DNA of 7,324 nucleotides from contig JALRFB010000044.1 of NCBI GenBank assembly GCA_023256555.1, forward strand, positions 1 to 7,324, read 5' to 3'. Shown in pieces: positions 1 through 7,324 of the stretch (the first letter of the stretch is position 1; each line of letters begins with the position of its first letter). The notes below the pieces were generated by a model. That model was not told where the DNA came from and did no database searches. It saw only the letters and a list, made by a program, of their open reading frames with translations. Source of the stretch: Sediminibacterium sp. (GTDB lineage Bacteria > Bacteroidota > Bacteroidia > Chitinophagales > Chitinophagaceae). The position numbers and the translations under genes were made by a program.

Positions 1-20
1 CCCCAAAACCCCAAAACCCC
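1..20. repeat. Ciliate macronuclear telomere, C4A4C4A4C4
   Basis: The window opens with two and a half C4A4 units, ending exactly on a C4 block before unique sequence begins. The C-rich strand reads 5' to 3' inward, the correct orientation for a chromosome left end. Spirotrich ciliates cap their gene-sized macronuclear chromosomes with C4A4/G4T4 repeats. The 20-nt double-stranded length matches Oxytricha and Stylonychia, whereas Euplotes carries about 28 nt. Bacteroidota chromosomes have no such ends. Because the repeat sits at the first base, some outer sequence could have been trimmed. The alternative of a chance microsatellite is unlikely given the ciliate-code gene directly inside it. Confidence 0.93.
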
Positions 21-68
21 TTTCCTTTGAAAAAAAAAATAGAAATAGAAATTTTTGGAATAAGATGT
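21..68 (-). other. Subtelomeric / 3' untranslated spacer of the ciliate nanochromosome
   Basis: This is the 48-bp AT-rich stretch between the telomere and the TGA stop of the protease gene. On the coding (minus) strand it is the 3' untranslated and subtelomeric region, with a long T run where the plus strand has A at about 30-39. Short untranslated and subtelomeric spacers are usual for spirotrich nanochromosomes. I could not identify a polyadenylation signal or a chromosome breakage signal in it. Confidence 0.6.
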
Positions 69-572
69 TCATTTATTTGGAGCTGATCCAATACTCTTCC
101 TGATGTTCTCAATCTAAGCTTTTGTATTCTCAAGTTTTACAAATGCAATTGTATTTTATTTAAGAATGCCGCATATCCCCTAGGTTGGAAATATTTCAGA
201 GTCGGTGGATATCCTGGCGTAACCTTTCTCTCCCCAGTTTTTACCCCAAGAATTCTTGATGATTATATATTCTTTTTTAGTTTTGGGGTCTATGTCATAG
301 CCAACAGCGATAACAGCGTGGTTTACTGAAGGTTGGCAATCCTTCGAGTCAATTATTCCCCCTGAATAAAAAGTAAAAAGCTTGGAGTCTCCATTGAGAG
401 ACATTGAAACGGGTCCTCTCACCAGTGCCTCTTTGAGGGCCTTGACTGTTCTACCGATTTTGTAATATGATTCCACTTTTATTCCCTCCTCAAATTTGTC
501 AAGATCAGAAGCTCTAACTCTCCTAGCACCTGGAATTCCAAAAATTTCTTTGAGAGTTTTACCAATTGATTA
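69..572 (-). CDS. Ciliate papain-family (C1A) cysteine protease, C-terminal part, truncated at the junction
   Basis: This is the C-terminal half of a papain/cathepsin-like endopeptidase, which in ciliates usually acts in food vacuoles or lysosomes or is secreted. Visible motifs in order are GPVSMSL, the FYSGGI strand, the catalytic histidine in VNHAVIAVGYD (codon 318-320), and the catalytic asparagine in KNSWGKNWGEKGYARI (codon 252-254). Under the standard code the frame stops at TAG 180-182. Reading TAG/TAA as Gln extends it through 180-182, 156-158 and 114-116 to TGA at 69-71. That recovers QGICGIL, matching the G-x-C-G-I motif near the C-terminus of papain enzymes. Continuation past the TAG is therefore genuine. 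The signal peptide, propeptide and catalytic-cysteine segment (CGSCWAFS in the family) are missing, because upstream sequence is replaced by bacterial DNA at about 560-576. No start codon belongs to this fragment; a GTG at 474-476 is an internal Val. No intron is visible. Confidence 0.9.
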
Positions 573-576
573 AGTT
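560..576. other. Ciliate/bacterial chimeric breakpoint
   Basis: Right of about 574 the plus strand reads as LpxH protein (VYFAPHEFSFSGKKF, then HGDGLGPGD). Immediately left, the same frame has TAA at 571-573 and upstream codons with no LpxH-like sequence; the GNHD motif expected roughly 20-30 residues earlier is absent. The minus strand left of about 570 reads as papain-family sequence in the ciliate code. The breakpoint must lie in this short interval. The exact base cannot be fixed without the two parent sequences, and a few bases of microhomology may be shared. No transposon end, target duplication or telomere repeat sits at the join. Confidence 0.85.
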
Positions 577-1014
577 TATTTTGCTCCGCATGAATTTAGT
601 TTCTCTGGTAAAAAATTCTTTATTGCGCATGGCGATGGATTAGGACCTGGGGACGAAGGGTATAAGTTCATAAAGAAAATTTTCACTAGTTCTATTTGCC
701 AATGGTTCTTTAGATGGTTACATCCAGATCTAGGGATTAAATTGGCTAATTTTTTCAGCACTCAAAGTAGAATCAAAACAGGTAGTGCTGATGAAATATT
801 TTTAGGAGAAGATAAAGAGTGGTTAATTATTTATGCTAAAGAGCTGGCTAAAACCAATAATGCCAATTATTTTATTTTCGGCCACAGACATTATCCACTA
901 GACTTAAAAATTACTGATACTGCTAGATATATTAATTTAGGAGATTGGATAAGATCCAATACCTATGCAGTGTTTGACGGAAATAATCTTGAACTTAAAA
1001 AATGGGAAGCATGA
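574..1014 (+). pseudogene. lpxH: UDP-2,3-diacylglucosamine diphosphatase LpxH, 5'-truncated by the junction
   Basis: LpxH is a calcineurin-like metallophosphatase that hydrolyses UDP-2,3-diacylglucosamine to lipid X and UMP, a step of lipid A synthesis at the inner membrane. The readable part is 146 residues, against about 240-260 for the family. It contains HGDGLGPGD (His codon 628-630) and FGHRH (882-891 region), the metal-ligand motifs of the second half. It also has HPDLGIKLANFFS and the C-terminal RYINLGDWI, typical of the Bacteroidota enzyme. The N-terminal ligands (D-x-H, GD and GNHD motifs) are missing. Reading frame continues upstream to 574, where an in-frame TAA precedes it, so a TTG at 742 is internal and not a start. 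The TGA stop at 1012-1014 overlaps the next gene's ATG. The truncation is probably an assembly artefact; the parent bacterium almost certainly has an intact gene. Confidence 0.9.
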
Positions 1015-2076: not shown

Positions 2077-2682
2077 TTACAAACTTTCTTTTAAGTGCGT
2101 CAAGAAGCTTTTGATATTTTTTAAGCTATTCAATAAAGCCATATCCTTATCTGCTTTTTCCTTATTATTTTTCAAATAAGTTTTAGCACCATCTATTGAA
2201 TATTTTTTCTCCCTTAACAAGAAATAAATTTGCTTTAAGAATTCTATATCCTGAGACCTGAATAATCTATCTCCCTTTCTTGTTTTACGTGGTTGTAATT
2301 GTTTAAATTCTTTTTCCCAGTATCTAATTAATGAAGTATTTACATTAAACCAAGTAGCTACTTCTCCAATAGGGTAGTATAACTTTTTTGCCAATATCTC
2401 TGCACTAGGTACTTGTAATTTGTCCATGTCCCCTTCCATTGAAGCGAATGATTTTCTACCTCTTTTTTGTAAGACCGCGCTCGCTTTATATTGCATACTT
2501 GTTCTAGAAACTGTTGGTAATGTTTCCTCAGCAACTATAGAATGGTCTTCTTCTTTTACTACTGCTTTTAGTGCAACTGTTTTTGGCTTTTTAAAATTTT
2601 TAGAACTTGCTGGGGCTGCAATATGCACCGGTTGAGGTGTATCGTTACCAAATAAATCTAATTGCTGCAAGTGTTTAGCCAT
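2077..2682 (-). CDS. MerR-family DNA-binding transcriptional regulator
   Basis: A 201-residue protein. Residues about 101-169 form a MerR-type winged helix-turn-helix: YYPIGEVATWFNVNTSLIRYWEKEF, then the wing with RKGDRLFRSQDIEFLKQI, and a helix resembling the REKKYSIDGAKTYL segment of the family. The first 95 or so residues are low-complexity, charged and rich in Lys/Ala/Thr, probably disordered. No cysteine-based metal site or large effector domain follows; only about 30 residues remain, which may serve as a dimerisation helix. Regulators of this build (N-terminal tail plus MerR domain) recur in Bacteroidota, but I know no assigned target. The gene converges on the channel gene with a 7-bp gap and diverges from the operon starting at 2768, so autoregulation or control of that operon is possible (inference). 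The minus-strand ATG at 2680-2682 lies 4 bp from a TAnnTTTG box. Confidence 0.9.
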   Translation of the reverse strand: MAKHLQQLDLFGNDTPQPVHIAAPASSKNFKKPKTVALKAVVKEEDHSIVAEETLPTVSRTSMQYKASAVLQKRGRKSFASMEGDMDKLQVPSAEILAKKLYYPIGEVATWFNVNTSLIRYWEKEFKQLQPRKTRKGDRLFRSQDIEFLKQIYFLLREKKYSIDGAKTYLKNNKEKADKDMALLNSLKNIKSFLTHLKESL

Positions 2683-2767: not shown

Positions 2768-3733
2768 ATGCGTATTTTTATTGATACAAAAGCTACTTGG
2801 AATTTGCCCAGTGTATTGGTGCATCAAGTGGTGATTGATTTGATTACTGCGGAAATCCAATTGCCTTCAGCTGAAATAATTGTTGTGTCTGATGGATTTA
2901 ATGGAATTTTACCTCCAGGGGCTAGTTTGATGAGTACAATGGAAGCCGAAAACCTTTTGATCAATTGCACCAATGCTGTCATTATACATTTTGGTTTGGT
3001 TTTTAAAGGAGCTGAACATTTTCCTCAATATTTTATTGATCTAACCAATCCGAAGCATTTAAAAGAGGGCTTTTTAGCTAATTGGATAGCACAAATAAAT
3101 TATCATAAAACTATTAAAAAGGCTCGTAGGGTTTTTGGATGGTTGGATTTGCCATCCCCTAGTTTACCTAGCTATGAATGGTCTGAATTAGCTATGGCAA
3201 AATCTCGTAATTCAGGAGGCGACAACTATTTTATGGCCTTTGTTCCTTTATCAGAAATAGTGTCTACACTTAAAGAGTTTTCTATTTTTAAAAAATGGCA
3301 ACAAACAAGTATGGCCATACTATTTATTTGCGAAAATCAAAAGGAATTATCTAATGCAGAGTCATTGGTTAAAGGGTATAAATATAGAAATGCGGTATTT
3401 TTTAAAACCCTTGAAAACCTTGACCTGATTGATTTTGCAGCTGCTTATACTACCCTTTGGAGTACATCTATACATTATTATACTCGTATGATACAATGGT
3501 CTGCGGGATTGGGAGTTCCTATATTAATGAATAGTACATCCAACTGGTCTGTTGCATTTACAAAAGCAGGAGAATGTTTTAATTTCTCTGAAACTATGGG
3601 TCTTTCCAATCATTTCAAATTATACTATAAAGACGAAGTGTATAAACAAACCAGAGCCAACCATGGCCATGCTTGGTTCAACCAAATGAAGCAAGATGGT
3701 CTTACCATAAAAAATGGTATTTTTGCCCAATAA
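2768..3733 (+). CDS. Divergent glycosyltransferase-like protein (GT-B fold suspected)
   Basis: A 321-residue protein from ATG 2768; a TTG at 2762 would add two residues but lies inside the promoter-like box. The N-terminus MRIFIDTKATWNLPSVL starts like a GT-B nucleotide-sugar transferase strand. Near residues 154-187, the stretch FMAFVPLSEIVSTLKEFSIFKKW followed by AILFICEN resembles the second Rossmann domain of GT4 enzymes, where the chain proposes a task list and a strand. Residues 224-257 (AAYTTLWSTS, then QWSAGLGVPILMN) echo the GT4 pattern of a site with small residues followed by EAMA-x-G-x-PVI. However, the E-x7-E pair that binds the nucleotide sugar is not clear, so catalytic activity is doubtful. 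There is no signal peptide or membrane span. It heads the operon, ending 8 bp before gldC. Other possibilities are a degenerate glycosyltransferase or an unrelated Rossmann-like protein. Confidence 0.6.
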   Translation: MRIFIDTKATWNLPSVLVHQVVIDLITAEIQLPSAEIIVVSDGFNGILPPGASLMSTMEAENLLINCTNAVIIHFGLVFKGAEHFPQYFIDLTNPKHLKEGFLANWIAQINYHKTIKKARRVFGWLDLPSPSLPSYEWSELAMAKSRNSGGDNYFMAFVPLSEIVSTLKEFSIFKKWQQTSMAILFICENQKELSNAESLVKGYKYRNAVFFKTLENLDLIDFAAAYTTLWSTSIHYYTRMIQWSAGLGVPILMNSTSNWSVAFTKAGECFNFSETMGLSNHFKLYYKDEVYKQTRANHGHAWFNQMKQDGLTIKNGIFAQ

Positions 3734-3741
3734 ATTTAATT

Positions 3742-4092
3742 ATGCATCAATCTAATATTAACGTTCAAATTAGCTTGGACGAACAAAAAATTCCACAACA
3801 AATTCAATGGTCTGCAACAGATAGTTCTGCTCAAGAAGCACAAGCTGCTAGAGCCATGATGCTTACTTTTTGGGACCCTACAGATAAAACTGCCTTGAGA
3901 ATAGATTTATGGACCAAAGAAATGATGGTAGACGAGATGGCCGATTTCTTTTATCAAAATCTAATGGGAATGGGTGATACTTATATGAGAGCGACCCAAG
4001 ACAAAGCATTATCAGATGAATTTAAAAATTTCGCTAAGTCTTTTTTAGTGAAATTTAAAGAGAGTCAATTGAAACAAAACAATACTAAATAA
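3742..4092 (+). CDS. gldC: Gliding motility protein GldC
   Basis: A 116-residue soluble protein matching GldC as I remember the family: SNINVQISLDEQKIPQQIQW near the N-terminus, WDPTDKTALRIDLWTKEM at about 44-61, then VDEMADFFYQNL, MGDTYMRAT and a helical C-terminus. GldC is a Bacteroidota accessory factor of gliding motility, first described in Flavobacterium johnsoniae, where it improves but is not essential for movement and is thought to support GldB. The start chosen is ATG 3742. A longer frame opening at 3673 overlaps the preceding gene in another frame and its extra residues do not fit the family. It lies 8 bp after the previous stop and 8 bp before the yqeY-type gene, so it is cotranscribed. 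Other gld genes are not in the window. Its presence does not prove motility, since GldC is found in many non-gliding relatives. Confidence 0.88.
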   Translation: MHQSNINVQISLDEQKIPQQIQWSATDSSAQEAQAARAMMLTFWDPTDKTALRIDLWTKEMMVDEMADFFYQNLMGMGDTYMRATQDKALSDEFKNFAKSFLVKFKESQLKQNNTK

Positions 4093-4100
4093 TTACCCTT

Positions 4101-4553
4101 ATGAGTTTAGAAGAAAAAGTAATGTCTTTGATGAAAGACGCTATGAAAAGTAAAGATGAAGCAACATTAAGAGGTTTAAGAGCGATCAAAGCTGAAATCA
4201 TTAAAGCTAAAACAGATCCAGGTGCGAATGGTGCAATTAACGAAGACACTGAAATAAAATTGTTACAAAAATTAGTAAAGTCTCGTAAAGATTCTTTGAC
4301 TATTTATGAGCAACAAAATAGAGCAGACTTAGCTGCTAAAGAAATAGAAGAAATTGCAGTGATTGAAAAATTCTTACCAGCTCAAATGAGTGAGGAAGAA
4401 GTGACTGCTGCAGTGAAAGCTATCATAGAGCAAGTGGGTGCTGCTGGTCCTCAAGACCTTGGAAAAGTTATGGGTGTAGCATCTAAGCAATTGGCTGGAA
4501 AAGCAGCAGGAAACGTTATTTCAGCAGTTGCTAAAAATTTATTGACAGCCTAG
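4101..4553 (+). CDS. yqeY: YqeY/GatB-related domain protein
   Basis: A 150-residue, highly helical soluble protein that aligns along its whole length with YqeY: SLEEKVMSLMKDAMKSKD, then TLRGLRAIKAEIIKAK, LLQKLVKSRKDSLTIYEQQNRADLAAKEIEEI, FLPAQMSEEEV, and DLGKVMGVASKQLAGKA with the GxxMG-type turn. The domain resembles the tail domain of GatB, the amidotransferase subunit that helps make Gln-tRNA and Asn-tRNA, and so may bind tRNA. Its physiological role is not well established. Length is normal for the family (about 148 residues). The TAG stop is followed after 1 bp by the cvpA ATG, indicating coupling. Confidence 0.95.
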   Translation: MSLEEKVMSLMKDAMKSKDEATLRGLRAIKAEIIKAKTDPGANGAINEDTEIKLLQKLVKSRKDSLTIYEQQNRADLAAKEIEEIAVIEKFLPAQMSEEEVTAAVKAIIEQVGAAGPQDLGKVMGVASKQLAGKAAGNVISAVAKNLLTA

Positions 4554-4554
4554 T

Positions 4555-5058
4555 ATGTGGATTGATATACTTTCTGGTACCATTTTGATTCTTGCTATTT
4601 TGCAAGGATATAGAAATGGATTGATCAAAGCTGTGATATCTTTTTTCTCTCTTTTTCTTGGATTGATTTTGGCTTTTCAATGTGCAGGATATGTTGCTGA
4701 TTTATTAAAAGCACACACAAAAATTGCTTCACATTGGTTGCCTTTTATTGCTTTTTTAGTGGTATTGATTGGAGTAATGATTTTATTAAAAATGATTACA
4801 GGTATCTTGCAACAATCTGCTGAATGGTTATTGTTGGGATGGTTGAATAAATTATTGGGCATGGTTTTATATGCCTTGATATATGGTACCATTTTAAGCG
4901 CATTGCTCTATTTTATGATCTTACTTGGAGTAGTTGAAAAATCTAGCATAAAAGATAGTTTTAGCTTCCCTTATCTAGAATCTTGGTGGCCCTATTTTAT
5001 GAAAAAGTTAAGTTTATGGATTCCTTCTATTAAATCTAGTTTGACCACTTTACTTTAA
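4555..5058 (+). CDS. cvpA: CvpA-family membrane protein
   Basis: A 167-residue integral membrane protein with four hydrophobic segments near residues 4-18, 22-47, 61-84 and 100-125. The family hallmarks are present: the D-x-L start, QGYRNGLIK after the first helix (family pattern G-x-x-x-G), and LLGWLNKLLGMVLYALIYG before the last helix. In E. coli CvpA is needed for colicin V production and influences envelope homeostasis; the molecular function is unresolved and no colicin gene is seen here. The C-terminal 40 residues are polar/aromatic (FSFPYLESWWPYFM). The start follows the yqeY TAG by 1 bp, so translation is probably coupled. Confidence 0.9.
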   Translation: MWIDILSGTILILAILQGYRNGLIKAVISFFSLFLGLILAFQCAGYVADLLKAHTKIASHWLPFIAFLVVLIGVMILLKMITGILQQSAEWLLLGWLNKLLGMVLYALIYGTILSALLYFMILLGVVEKSSIKDSFSFPYLESWWPYFMKKLSLWIPSIKSSLTTLL

Positions 5059-5091: not shown

Positions 5092-5853
5092 ATGGACTAC
5101 GAAATTAAAAAAGAAGGCAAATTTGAATACCTAGAAGTAGGTGAGGGAGAGGTGTTGATGCTATTGCATGGACTTTTTGGAGCATTGAGTAATTTTTCTG
5201 ATTTAATTGAGCGTTTTAGAACGACTCATAAGGTGGTGGTACCTTTATTACCTTTATTCGATTTAGATATTTTACATACTAGTGTAACTGGTTTAGCCAA
5301 GCATGTTGATCAATTTATTGAACACAAAGGTTACGATCAAATTCATTTATTAGGAAATTCTTTAGGCGGTCATGTTGCTTTAGTGCATGTATTAAAACAT
5401 CCCGAAAAAATAAAGTCATTGATTTTAACTGGAAGTAGTGGCTTATTTGAAAATGCCATGGGAGATACTTACCCAAAGCGCGGAGATTATGAATATATCA
5501 AAAATAAAACTGCTTTAACCTTTTATGACCCTAGTTTAGCAACCAAAGAATTAGTGGATGAAGTTTTTGAAATCACTAAAAACAGAATTAAAGTAATTAA
5601 AATTATTGCTTTGGCTAAAAGTGCTATTAGAAATAATTTGGGAGACGAGCTAAAACAAATTCAAAAACCTACTTTATTAATCTGGGGAAAGAACGATACA
5701 GTAACACCGCCATTTGTGGCCGAAGAGTTTCATAAATTGATTTCACATAGTCAACTGCATTTTATTGATAAATGTGGTCATGCACCAATGATGGAAGTTC
5801 CTGGTGAATTCAACGATTTATTGGATAATTTTCTTCAATCATTGCCAAAATAA
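5092..5853 (+). CDS. Alpha/beta hydrolase
   Basis: A 253-residue alpha/beta-fold hydrolase with a complete catalytic set: oxyanion-loop LLHGLFGALSNF (residues 24-35), nucleophile elbow GNSLGG with Ser90, acid in WGKNDTVTPP with Asp202, and CGHAPMMEVP with His230. The elbow G-N-S-x-G-G, the HG motif and a cap region at about 120-185 resemble the esterase/meta-cleavage-hydrolase group, but the substrate cannot be told from sequence. No signal peptide is seen, so it is cytosolic. In several Bacteroidota the gene upstream of the CBS-domain/nadK cluster is a hydrolase of this kind (recollection, not checked), so a housekeeping role is more likely than a specialised pathway. It ends 5 bp before the next start. 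Confidence 0.92.
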   Translation: MDYEIKKEGKFEYLEVGEGEVLMLLHGLFGALSNFSDLIERFRTTHKVVVPLLPLFDLDILHTSVTGLAKHVDQFIEHKGYDQIHLLGNSLGGHVALVHVLKHPEKIKSLILTGSSGLFENAMGDTYPKRGDYEYIKNKTALTFYDPSLATKELVDEVFEITKNRIKVIKIIALAKSAIRNNLGDELKQIQKPTLLIWGKNDTVTPPFVAEEFHKLISHSQLHFIDKCGHAPMMEVPGEFNDLLDNFLQSLPK

Positions 5854-5858
5854 ATTTC

Positions 5859-6518
5859 ATGATTGCCTCTAGTATAGCAGTTCAGAGTTTTCCTATGATG
5901 CGCCTAGAAGATAAGGCGGGCTTTGTTTTGCAAAACATGGAAGATTTTGATGTCCAAGAATTGGTAGTCATCAAAGATGATTATTATATTGGATTAGTCA
6001 ATAAAGAAGATGTACTAGATATACCTGAAGAACAATCAATTGCTTCAATTGCAGATAGTTTTCAGAGAATAGGTGTTCTAGGTGCTGCGCATATTACAGC
6101 AGTATTAGATCATTTTGCAAAACACCATTTAAGTATCTTGCCAGTTTTAAATGAACAACAAGAATGTGTTGGTGTAGTACCTCAGAAAAATCTGAATGAA
6201 ATGTTGGCCTTGTATTTAGGCGTTGCTCAACAAGGTGCTATTTTAGTATTTTCTGTTTCCCCATATCAATATTCCTTGGCCGAAATGAGTAGAATTGTTG
6301 AATCTAATAATGCTCAAATTGTACAATTGAATTCTATTTTTGACGAAGCTACCGGTGCTTATATTATTACCATAAAGATTAACAAAGAGGAAGCACAATC
6401 TATTGTTGCTACTTTTCAGCGTTATGAATATCAGTTGCTTCATTATTTTGGTAATACGCCTGTTAATAATGACATTGAAGATCATTATCACCATCTAATG
6501 AATTATTTAGATGTTTAA
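5859..6518 (+). CDS. Two-CBS plus ACT-like domain protein
   Basis: A 219-residue soluble protein. Residues 1-55 form a first, divergent CBS domain (ELVVIKDDYYIGLVNKEDVL). Residues about 72-118 form a second (AAHITAVLDHFAKHHLSILPVLNEQQECVGVV). CBS pairs bind adenosine nucleotides and act as energy or redox-state sensors. Residues 128-196 look like an ACT-type regulatory fold (ILVFSVSPYQYSLAEMSRIVESNNAQIV, then TGAYIITIKINKEEAQSIVATFQRYEYQLL). No enzymatic or transporter domain is attached, so it is probably a partner or sensor protein. In many Bacteroidota this gene precedes nadK, as I recall; here an outer-membrane gene follows directly. Its last codons overlap the next gene by 8 bp in another frame. 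Confidence 0.85.
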   Translation: MIASSIAVQSFPMMRLEDKAGFVLQNMEDFDVQELVVIKDDYYIGLVNKEDVLDIPEEQSIASIADSFQRIGVLGAAHITAVLDHFAKHHLSILPVLNEQQECVGVVPQKNLNEMLALYLGVAQQGAILVFSVSPYQYSLAEMSRIVESNNAQIVQLNSIFDEATGAYIITIKINKEEAQSIVATFQRYEYQLLHYFGNTPVNNDIEDHYHHLMNYLDV

Positions 6519-7324
6519 ACCTTGTGTTTTATTTTTCTTTTTTAGTATTGCTTTCGCATTTTCTGCTAAGGGCCAAATTGTAATTCGTTCAATTACTATC
6601 AAAGGGAATAATAAAACTAAAGATTATATTATTCAAAGAGAATTACCTTTCAAAATTGGATCAACTGTTGCTACAGATTCTTTAGCGTCTTTGATTTCAC
6701 TAGCACAATATCAGATTTTTAATACCAGTTTATTTAATGAAGCCAAAGTGGAATCTATTATGGTGGATAGTACCACTGCCGATGTGTTGATTCATGTTAA
6801 AGAACGCTGGTATTTATTTCCACTCCCTTATTTTAGATGGGTAGATAGGAATTTCAGTCAGTGGTGGAATCAACAAAATAGAAGTTTGGATAGGGTGAAC
6901 TATGGCATGAACTTTAGGCAGAGCAATTTTTCAGGTAACAATGATCGCTTAGTGATTGGTTTAATTACAGGCTATACGCATCAAGCCATTCTTAGATATC
7001 AAATTCCTTTTATTGATAAAAAATTGCAATGGGGTGTTGGAGCAGGACTACAATACTACACTCAAAAAGAAATCAATTTTACAACAATTGCAGATAAACA
7101 AGTTTTTTATAAATCTGATCGCAATTTAAGAGAGGGTTTTAGAGCTAATGTTAATCTATCTTATAGACCTAATTTATTTGAAAGATTTAATTTTCAACTG
7201 GGTTTGGGTGAAGAGCAAATCTCAGAGGAAGCTTTTGTAAAAGCACCAAGCTTACTTCCTACTTTAAATAAATCCATGCGATATGCAGATTTTACAGTAG
7301 GGTATGTTAAAATGAAATTTGATT
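6511..7324 (+). CDS. POTRA plus beta-barrel outer-membrane protein (BamA/TamA-like), runs off the right edge
   Basis: The readable part is 271 residues and is open at the window's end. MFKPCVLFFFFSIAFAFSAKG is a signal peptide, probably cleaved near residues 20-22. Residues 24-98 form one POTRA domain: IVIRSITIKGNNKTKDYIIQREL, then the LFNEAKVES strand and ADVLIHVKERW. After it come repeated amphipathic strands (YGMNFRQSNFSGNNDRLVIGLITGY, LQWGVGAGLQYYT) typical of an outer-membrane barrel, with the Omp85-like turn near FSGNNDRL. BamA carries five POTRA domains, so this short single-POTRA form is closer to the BamA/TamA-like proteins of unknown cargo found in Bacteroidota. The ATG at 6511 lies 8 bp inside the CBS gene's end, suggesting coupled translation. 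The C-terminal barrel strand, diagnostic of family, is outside the window. Confidence 0.85.
   Translation, partial: MFKPCVLFFFFSIAFAFSAKGQIVIRSITIKGNNKTKDYIIQRELPFKIGSTVATDSLASLISLAQYQIFNTSLFNEAKVESIMVDSTTADVLIHVKERWYLFPLPYFRWVDRNFSQWWNQQNRSLDRVNYGMNFRQSNFSGNNDRLVIGLITGYTHQAILRYQIPFIDKKLQWGVGAGLQYYTQKEINFTTIADKQVFYKSDRNLREGFRANVNLSYRPNLFERFNFQLGLGEEQISEEAFVKAPSLLPTLNKSMRYADFTVGYVKMKFD

Follow-up and report, generated by a model that had tools for sequence, protein, structure and literature searches.

A telomere-capped ciliate protease fragment joined to Bacteroidota genes in a bacterial genome bin is very likely an artificial chimera

The window analyzed here, 7324 bp and the whole of contig C307 in a 1.33-Mb bacterial bin (368 contigs, 58.4% complete), carries the telomeric end of a ciliate nanochromosome joined directly to a run of Bacteroidota genes. 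We consider it, with a probability of about 0.95, to be an artificial chimera, in which the broken end of a nanochromosome was joined to a broken fragment of a Bacteroidota chromosome during library preparation, amplification or assembly. We favor this reading because (i) both genes at the join are cut mid-domain, (ii) the interrupted bacterial gene is mostly full-length in the genus, (iii) the bacterial genes keep bacterial stops and, as the decisive comparison, (iv) public contigs with unrelated bacteria and genes show this arrangement again. The first-pass annotation had named such a chimera as the simplest reading, and the relatives of the interrupted gene, the stop codons and the recurrence of the architecture now support that view.

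The first 20 bases of the contig (positions 1–20, forward strand) are exactly CCCCAAAACCCCAAAACCCC, or C4A4C4A4C4, the C-rich strand of a spirotrich-type macronuclear telomere. This 20-mer has no other match in the bin, also when two mismatches are allowed. Among 294 sampled family genomes it matches two, the source genome counted among them, and it is absent from the four other genus members in that sample. No second telomere was found in the window or in the 58%-complete bin at up to two mismatches and, given the single telomere, the ciliate DNA in this contig is only a fragment of a nanochromosome. The following 48 bases (21–68, reverse strand; GC 0.19) have the composition of an AT-rich subtelomeric or 3′ UTR stretch. 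Their length may be compared with the mean 3′ UTR of ~49 bp in Halteria, whose telomere is given as (C4A4)2–3C4 in the accessible text of the same report (PMC7858049). A (C4A4)nC4 telomere, code-6 codon use, a TGA stop and a very short 3′ UTR are all common to Halteria nanochromosomes and the contig. Oxytricha and Stylonychia are also spirotrich ciliates with macronuclear nanochromosomes. Unlike a spirotrich nanochromosome, the contig has the 3′ tail only, bacterial DNA taking the place of the N-terminal half of the gene and of the second telomere.

On the reverse strand, a TGA stop (69–71) 48 bases from the telomere closes a frame that, in code 6, specifies the C-terminal half of a C1 (papain-family) cysteine protease (72–569, with the upper edge somewhere between 554 and ~569). 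The product matches the Pfam Peptidase_C1 profile with an E-value of 2.9e-25 (90.1 bits, compared with a cut-off of 20.7) over profile positions 110–217 of 220, and thus its N-terminal half is absent. The NHAV and KNSWG stretches correspond to the His and Asn regions of the profile, residues that have catalytic roles in peptidase family C1, and the part that would contain the catalytic Cys is absent. Solved structures related to the fragment include eukaryotic papains and cathepsins, and seven homologues (P0001–P0007) with 43–57% identity lie on contigs of 1.4 kb or less. Three in-frame TAA/TAG codons interrupt the frame unless they are read as sense. Because an open code-6 frame is weak evidence alone (TGA is likewise absent from this frame in 122 of 2000 shuffles), the ciliate case is carried by the protein match together with the telomere. 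Neither a second copy of the protease nor a histone gene was found in the bin, and thus no second ciliate gene is seen there. An intact copy of the protease gene was likewise not found by tblastn or blastn among the telomere-bearing loci described below. Setting aside its own locus, the protease recovered L066 (27% identity, E-value 3e-5) and L107 (E-value 0.36) by tblastn and nothing below an E-value of 0.1 by blastn.

The bacterial part of the contig opens with the C-terminal 146 residues of lpxH (UDP-2,3-diacylglucosamine diphosphatase; 574–1014, forward strand), a gene needed for lipid A. The fragment is 86% identical to the protein of the closest genus relative (G028) and matches PDB 5b49 with an E-value of 4.7e-5, aligned from residue 104 of 248. 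LpxH of this relative has 252 residues, so that ~106 N-terminal residues are missing from the contig copy at the join. The shared C-terminal portion is followed in both by the same MscS and MerR genes in identical order, and alignments of several relatives extend from lpxH past base 2,390. An lpxH frame of at least 250 residues is present in 34 of 36 same-genus genomes, the other two having a 206-aa frame and a 36-aa stub; judged by this frame, the 34 genomes are without the join. The N-terminal half of lpxH was not found in the bin using a query that, as a positive control, matches 12 of 12 relatives. The upstream neighbor of lpxH (a query run without a positive control) and the reciprocal junction were not found there either, and with a bin 58% complete these absences constitute mild evidence.

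Bacterial DNA accounts for ~6.75 kb of the contig and is ordinary in content. Following lpxH, and on the forward strand except where noted, are genes for an MscS-type mechanosensitive channel (1002–2069; Pfam MS_channel_2nd, 4.8e-21), a MerR-family regulator (2077–2682, reverse strand; MerR_1, 7.3e-15), a 321-aa protein with an open reading frame but no Pfam match (2768–3733), a GldC-like gliding-motility protein (3742–4092; Pfam GldC-like, 3.1e-35), a YqeY-like protein (4101–4553; Pfam, 1.6e-40), a CvpA/colicin V production family member (4555–5058; Pfam, 2.1e-22), an alpha/beta hydrolase (5092–5853; Pfam, 4.7e-24) and a CBS-domain protein (5859–6518; Pfam, 9e-7). The YqeY-like gene ends in TAG and the others in TAA. 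The last frame (6511–7324), recognized as an ORF only, is the N-terminal part of an exported outer-membrane-like protein, presumably BamA-like, and is cut by the contig end. We label this part Bacteroidota because of the GldC match and one family member (G235:C241). All nine bacterial genes checked have clean table-11 frames, and eight of the nine end in TAA or TAG, stops that the ciliate code would read through; the bacterial genes do therefore keep bacterial stops, as had been claimed.

Three lines of comparison place the join within a narrow interval. First, none of the DNA alignments of 23 same-genus relatives to the bacterial part begins before position 564; 13 begin at 564–577 and the remaining 10 at 607–614. 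Second, the lpxH consensus is matched residue by residue from VYF at 574 onward, and the 18 codons ahead of 574 do not encode the residues conserved among the relatives at those positions. Third, on the ciliate side, homologue P0001 aligns from residue 22 on, which corresponds to homology up to base 554 (bases 552–554); the P0007 alignment does not begin until residue 34. From these edges, the join lies within 555–574, with at most ~20 bases between ciliate and bacterial homology, and both genes are broken mid-domain inside this one 20-base interval. The first-pass annotation had described a spirotrich-type telomere at the contig start, a ciliate-code protease fragment lacking its N-terminal half, an lpxH truncated to begin at 574 and a join around 540–600 that cuts both genes. 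Each element of that description holds, with the junction now confined to the shorter interval. A codon-usage scan was also tried as a junction counter and rejected: trained on the contig itself, it put the junction of the window at ~630 rather than 574, and its output for other loci is left out of all counts.

An exact search for the telomere 20-mer in public collections returned at least 115 stretches from GTDB genomes (L003–L117), a non-random sample, and 16 from IMG/VR (L118–L133). The 20-mer lies 40 bp or less from a contig end in at least 65 of the 115 GTDB loci listed and in 15 of the 16 IMG/VR loci. Among the matches listed, 91 of 94 end runs are oriented outward, as a telomere requires, and three inward; 71 of the 91 outward runs begin or finish on the first or last base of the contig. 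A reversed-pattern control is uninformative for this 20-mer, which is identical when read backwards. Of the 131 loci listed, 11 carry the 20-mer at each end and 69 at a single end. In 51 it lies away from the stretch ends (60 inner runs counted), and some of these loci belong to Microcystis or other genomes to which the 20-mer may be native.

The one-end loci are those most similar to our contig. We scanned one ORF in each of 30 of these 69 loci, hand-chosen with long table-11 ORFs favored, taking the nearest (23 loci) or second-nearest (seven loci) coding-like ORF at 25 to ~4,500 bases from the telomere. In 23 of the 30 chosen loci this ORF matches a prokaryotic NCBIfam model at 1e-5, weakly so in L023, L046, L047 and L093, and in 14 it passes a curated cut-off; the loci with weak matches and the seven with none are less certainly bacterial. 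As with lpxH here, the matched gene has lost sequence on the side facing the telomere in L064 (tig, trigger factor), L067 (rfbH), L094 (secA) and L117 (an oxidoreductase). In at least seven loci (L022, L048, L066, L068, L103, L107 and L131), two inverted telomeres delimit a complete small nanochromosome that is joined to further DNA, which in L068 and L103 includes an ORF with a type IX secretion tail. Pfam searches with nine ORFs, from eight two-telomere loci and the one-telomere locus L063, gave matches for three. According to their record titles, the partners in the 23 NCBIfam-matching loci span several bacterial phyla, among others Acidimicrobiales, Flavobacterium, Alphaproteobacteria, Anaerolineae, Leptolyngbya, Parcubacteria and Desulfovibrionaceae. 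Such diversity is predicted by random joining with other DNA in the tube, and not by a specific symbiosis or transfer. The recurrent telomere-ended contigs, many of them bacterial or viral in appearance beyond the telomere, thus look like a class produced by technical chimerism and mis-binning, although a single real member of the class would still be compatible with the class evidence. The literature searched, at the level of titles and abstract openings, yielded no description of telomere-capped ciliate–bacterium contigs in MAG collections, which is not proof of absence.

Coverage values in record titles are 2.3–3.2 for three one-telomere loci, L016 and L023 (both with NCBIfam matches) and L101 (none), and 9.3–117 for four loci that look ciliate throughout (L012, L028, L079 and L029). 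The other values are 6.7 for the unclassified locus L090, and 2.3, 18.7 and 14.3 for L097, L050 and L077, where the 20-mer is further inside. In this tiny sample, the values fit low bacterial coverage at the joins.

Several other features of the telomere-bearing loci were observed. Eight contigs (L009, L010, L051, L063, L070, L074, L108 and L109) come from one Candidatus Paceibacterota MAG (MAG_CO256) and bear a telomere close to one end or to both; of three ORFs tested there against Pfam, two match EF-hand and SMC domains and one matches nothing, and this bin could contain numerous ciliate nanochromosomes. L123 (IMGVR_UViG_3300027904_000479) has telomeres near both ends and one 1274-aa ORF with type II topoisomerase domains, and probably represents a ciliate nanochromosome that was entered in a viral collection. 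Where nanochromosome ends are joined internally, the G-rich strand runs for 20 bases before the foreign DNA in L068, L131, L065 and L112 and for ~28–40 bases in L003, L019, L107 and L066, as if joining had in some cases retained the single-stranded overhang and in others removed it. Finally, the telomere is only ~70–170 bases from a long coding frame in L132 (a 37.6-kb viral contig) and L064 (a 46.8-kb contig), so the ciliate part of a chimeric contig can be very short.

How could such a contig arise? Ciliate and bacterial DNA would both have been present in one library, a nanochromosome would have been broken with its natural telomere end retained, and the two broken ends would have been joined in vitro or in silico, perhaps through ligation of the ends, through template switching or in assembly. 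The contig presumably stops at base 1 since the nanochromosome itself ends there. The join may have survived through thin coverage of the bacterial part, where a rare chimeric fragment would not be outvoted. As a counterpoint, a chimeric read in a well-covered nanochromosome should cause a branch in the assembly graph; because many assemblers would break such a branch, a surviving join needs low local coverage, which we assume here. Chimeric contigs are a recognized problem in ciliate assembly: in the accessible text of the Oxytricha genome report, ~9% of contigs were split as potential chimeras at sites without spanning read pairs (PMC3558436). The contig here differs from those in having a bacterial chromosome as its partner and in having been released as part of a bacterial bin.

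The alternative that survives best, albeit as a very improbable one, is that prey or symbiont DNA was truly joined to a nanochromosome in the ciliate macronucleus and has been maintained there with a telomere at each end. The exact telomere, a ciliate tail indistinguishable in layout from a normal nanochromosome 3′ end and the existence of similar joins in other contigs would all be accommodated by such an event. Weighing against it are the presence of one telomere only, with a right end that is an assembly end inside a gene, the TAA/TAG stops kept in eight of nine genes, which the host code would read through, and partners from several phyla, as random joining predicts. In the portions of the relevant reports available, moreover, no nanochromosomes with bacterial sequence are described for Euplotes focardii (PMC8455672) and no fragment of the Halteria assembly mapped to bacteria (PMC7858049). 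We regard as equally far-fetched the broader proposal that bacterial DNA swallowed by ciliates acquires a telomere by joining to broken nanochromosomes inside the macronucleus, the public telomere-capped contigs, ours included, being snapshots of prey DNA kept for a while. Transfer into the ciliate was rejected on the stop codons of eight of the nine genes.

Even less probable is integration of ciliate DNA into the chromosome of a Bacteroidota species. The contig was indeed binned with a bacterium, but integration would have broken lpxH, which is a full-length frame in 34 of 36 same-genus genomes (the two exceptions being the 206-aa frame and the stub) and was rejected on this count; the four other sampled genus members have no telomere, and the telomere would need to sit exactly where the contig happens to end, at base 1. 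That the left part is instead some other bacterial or viral gene beside a chance repeat can be dismissed with similar confidence, since, although C1-family proteases occur outside ciliates too and the code-6 frame is weak on its own, an exact 20-base C4A4 repeat sits at base 1, three in-frame TAA/TAG codons precede a TGA stop close to it and the solved-structure relatives include eukaryotic papains and cathepsins.

The artificial chimera is thus the reading we retain, and the earlier judgment that integration or bacterium-to-macronucleus transfer is less likely is upheld by the stop codons and the full-length lpxH of relatives. The added hint of symbiosis is weak, the partners of such joins spanning several phyla, and the chimera implies no more than that both DNAs were present in one DNA library.

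The contig is very likely an artifact, and the join says little as biology; it matters for data quality. In species-representative genomes of bacteria as in sets of viral contigs, a contig that ends in the exact 20-base telomere signals ciliate DNA and often a chimera, and such contigs could wrongly pass for horizontal transfer or symbiosis. Screening collections for the 20-mer would provide a cheap contamination marker, and the wider value of the finding is limited to pointing at this recurrent class of contamination in reference collections.
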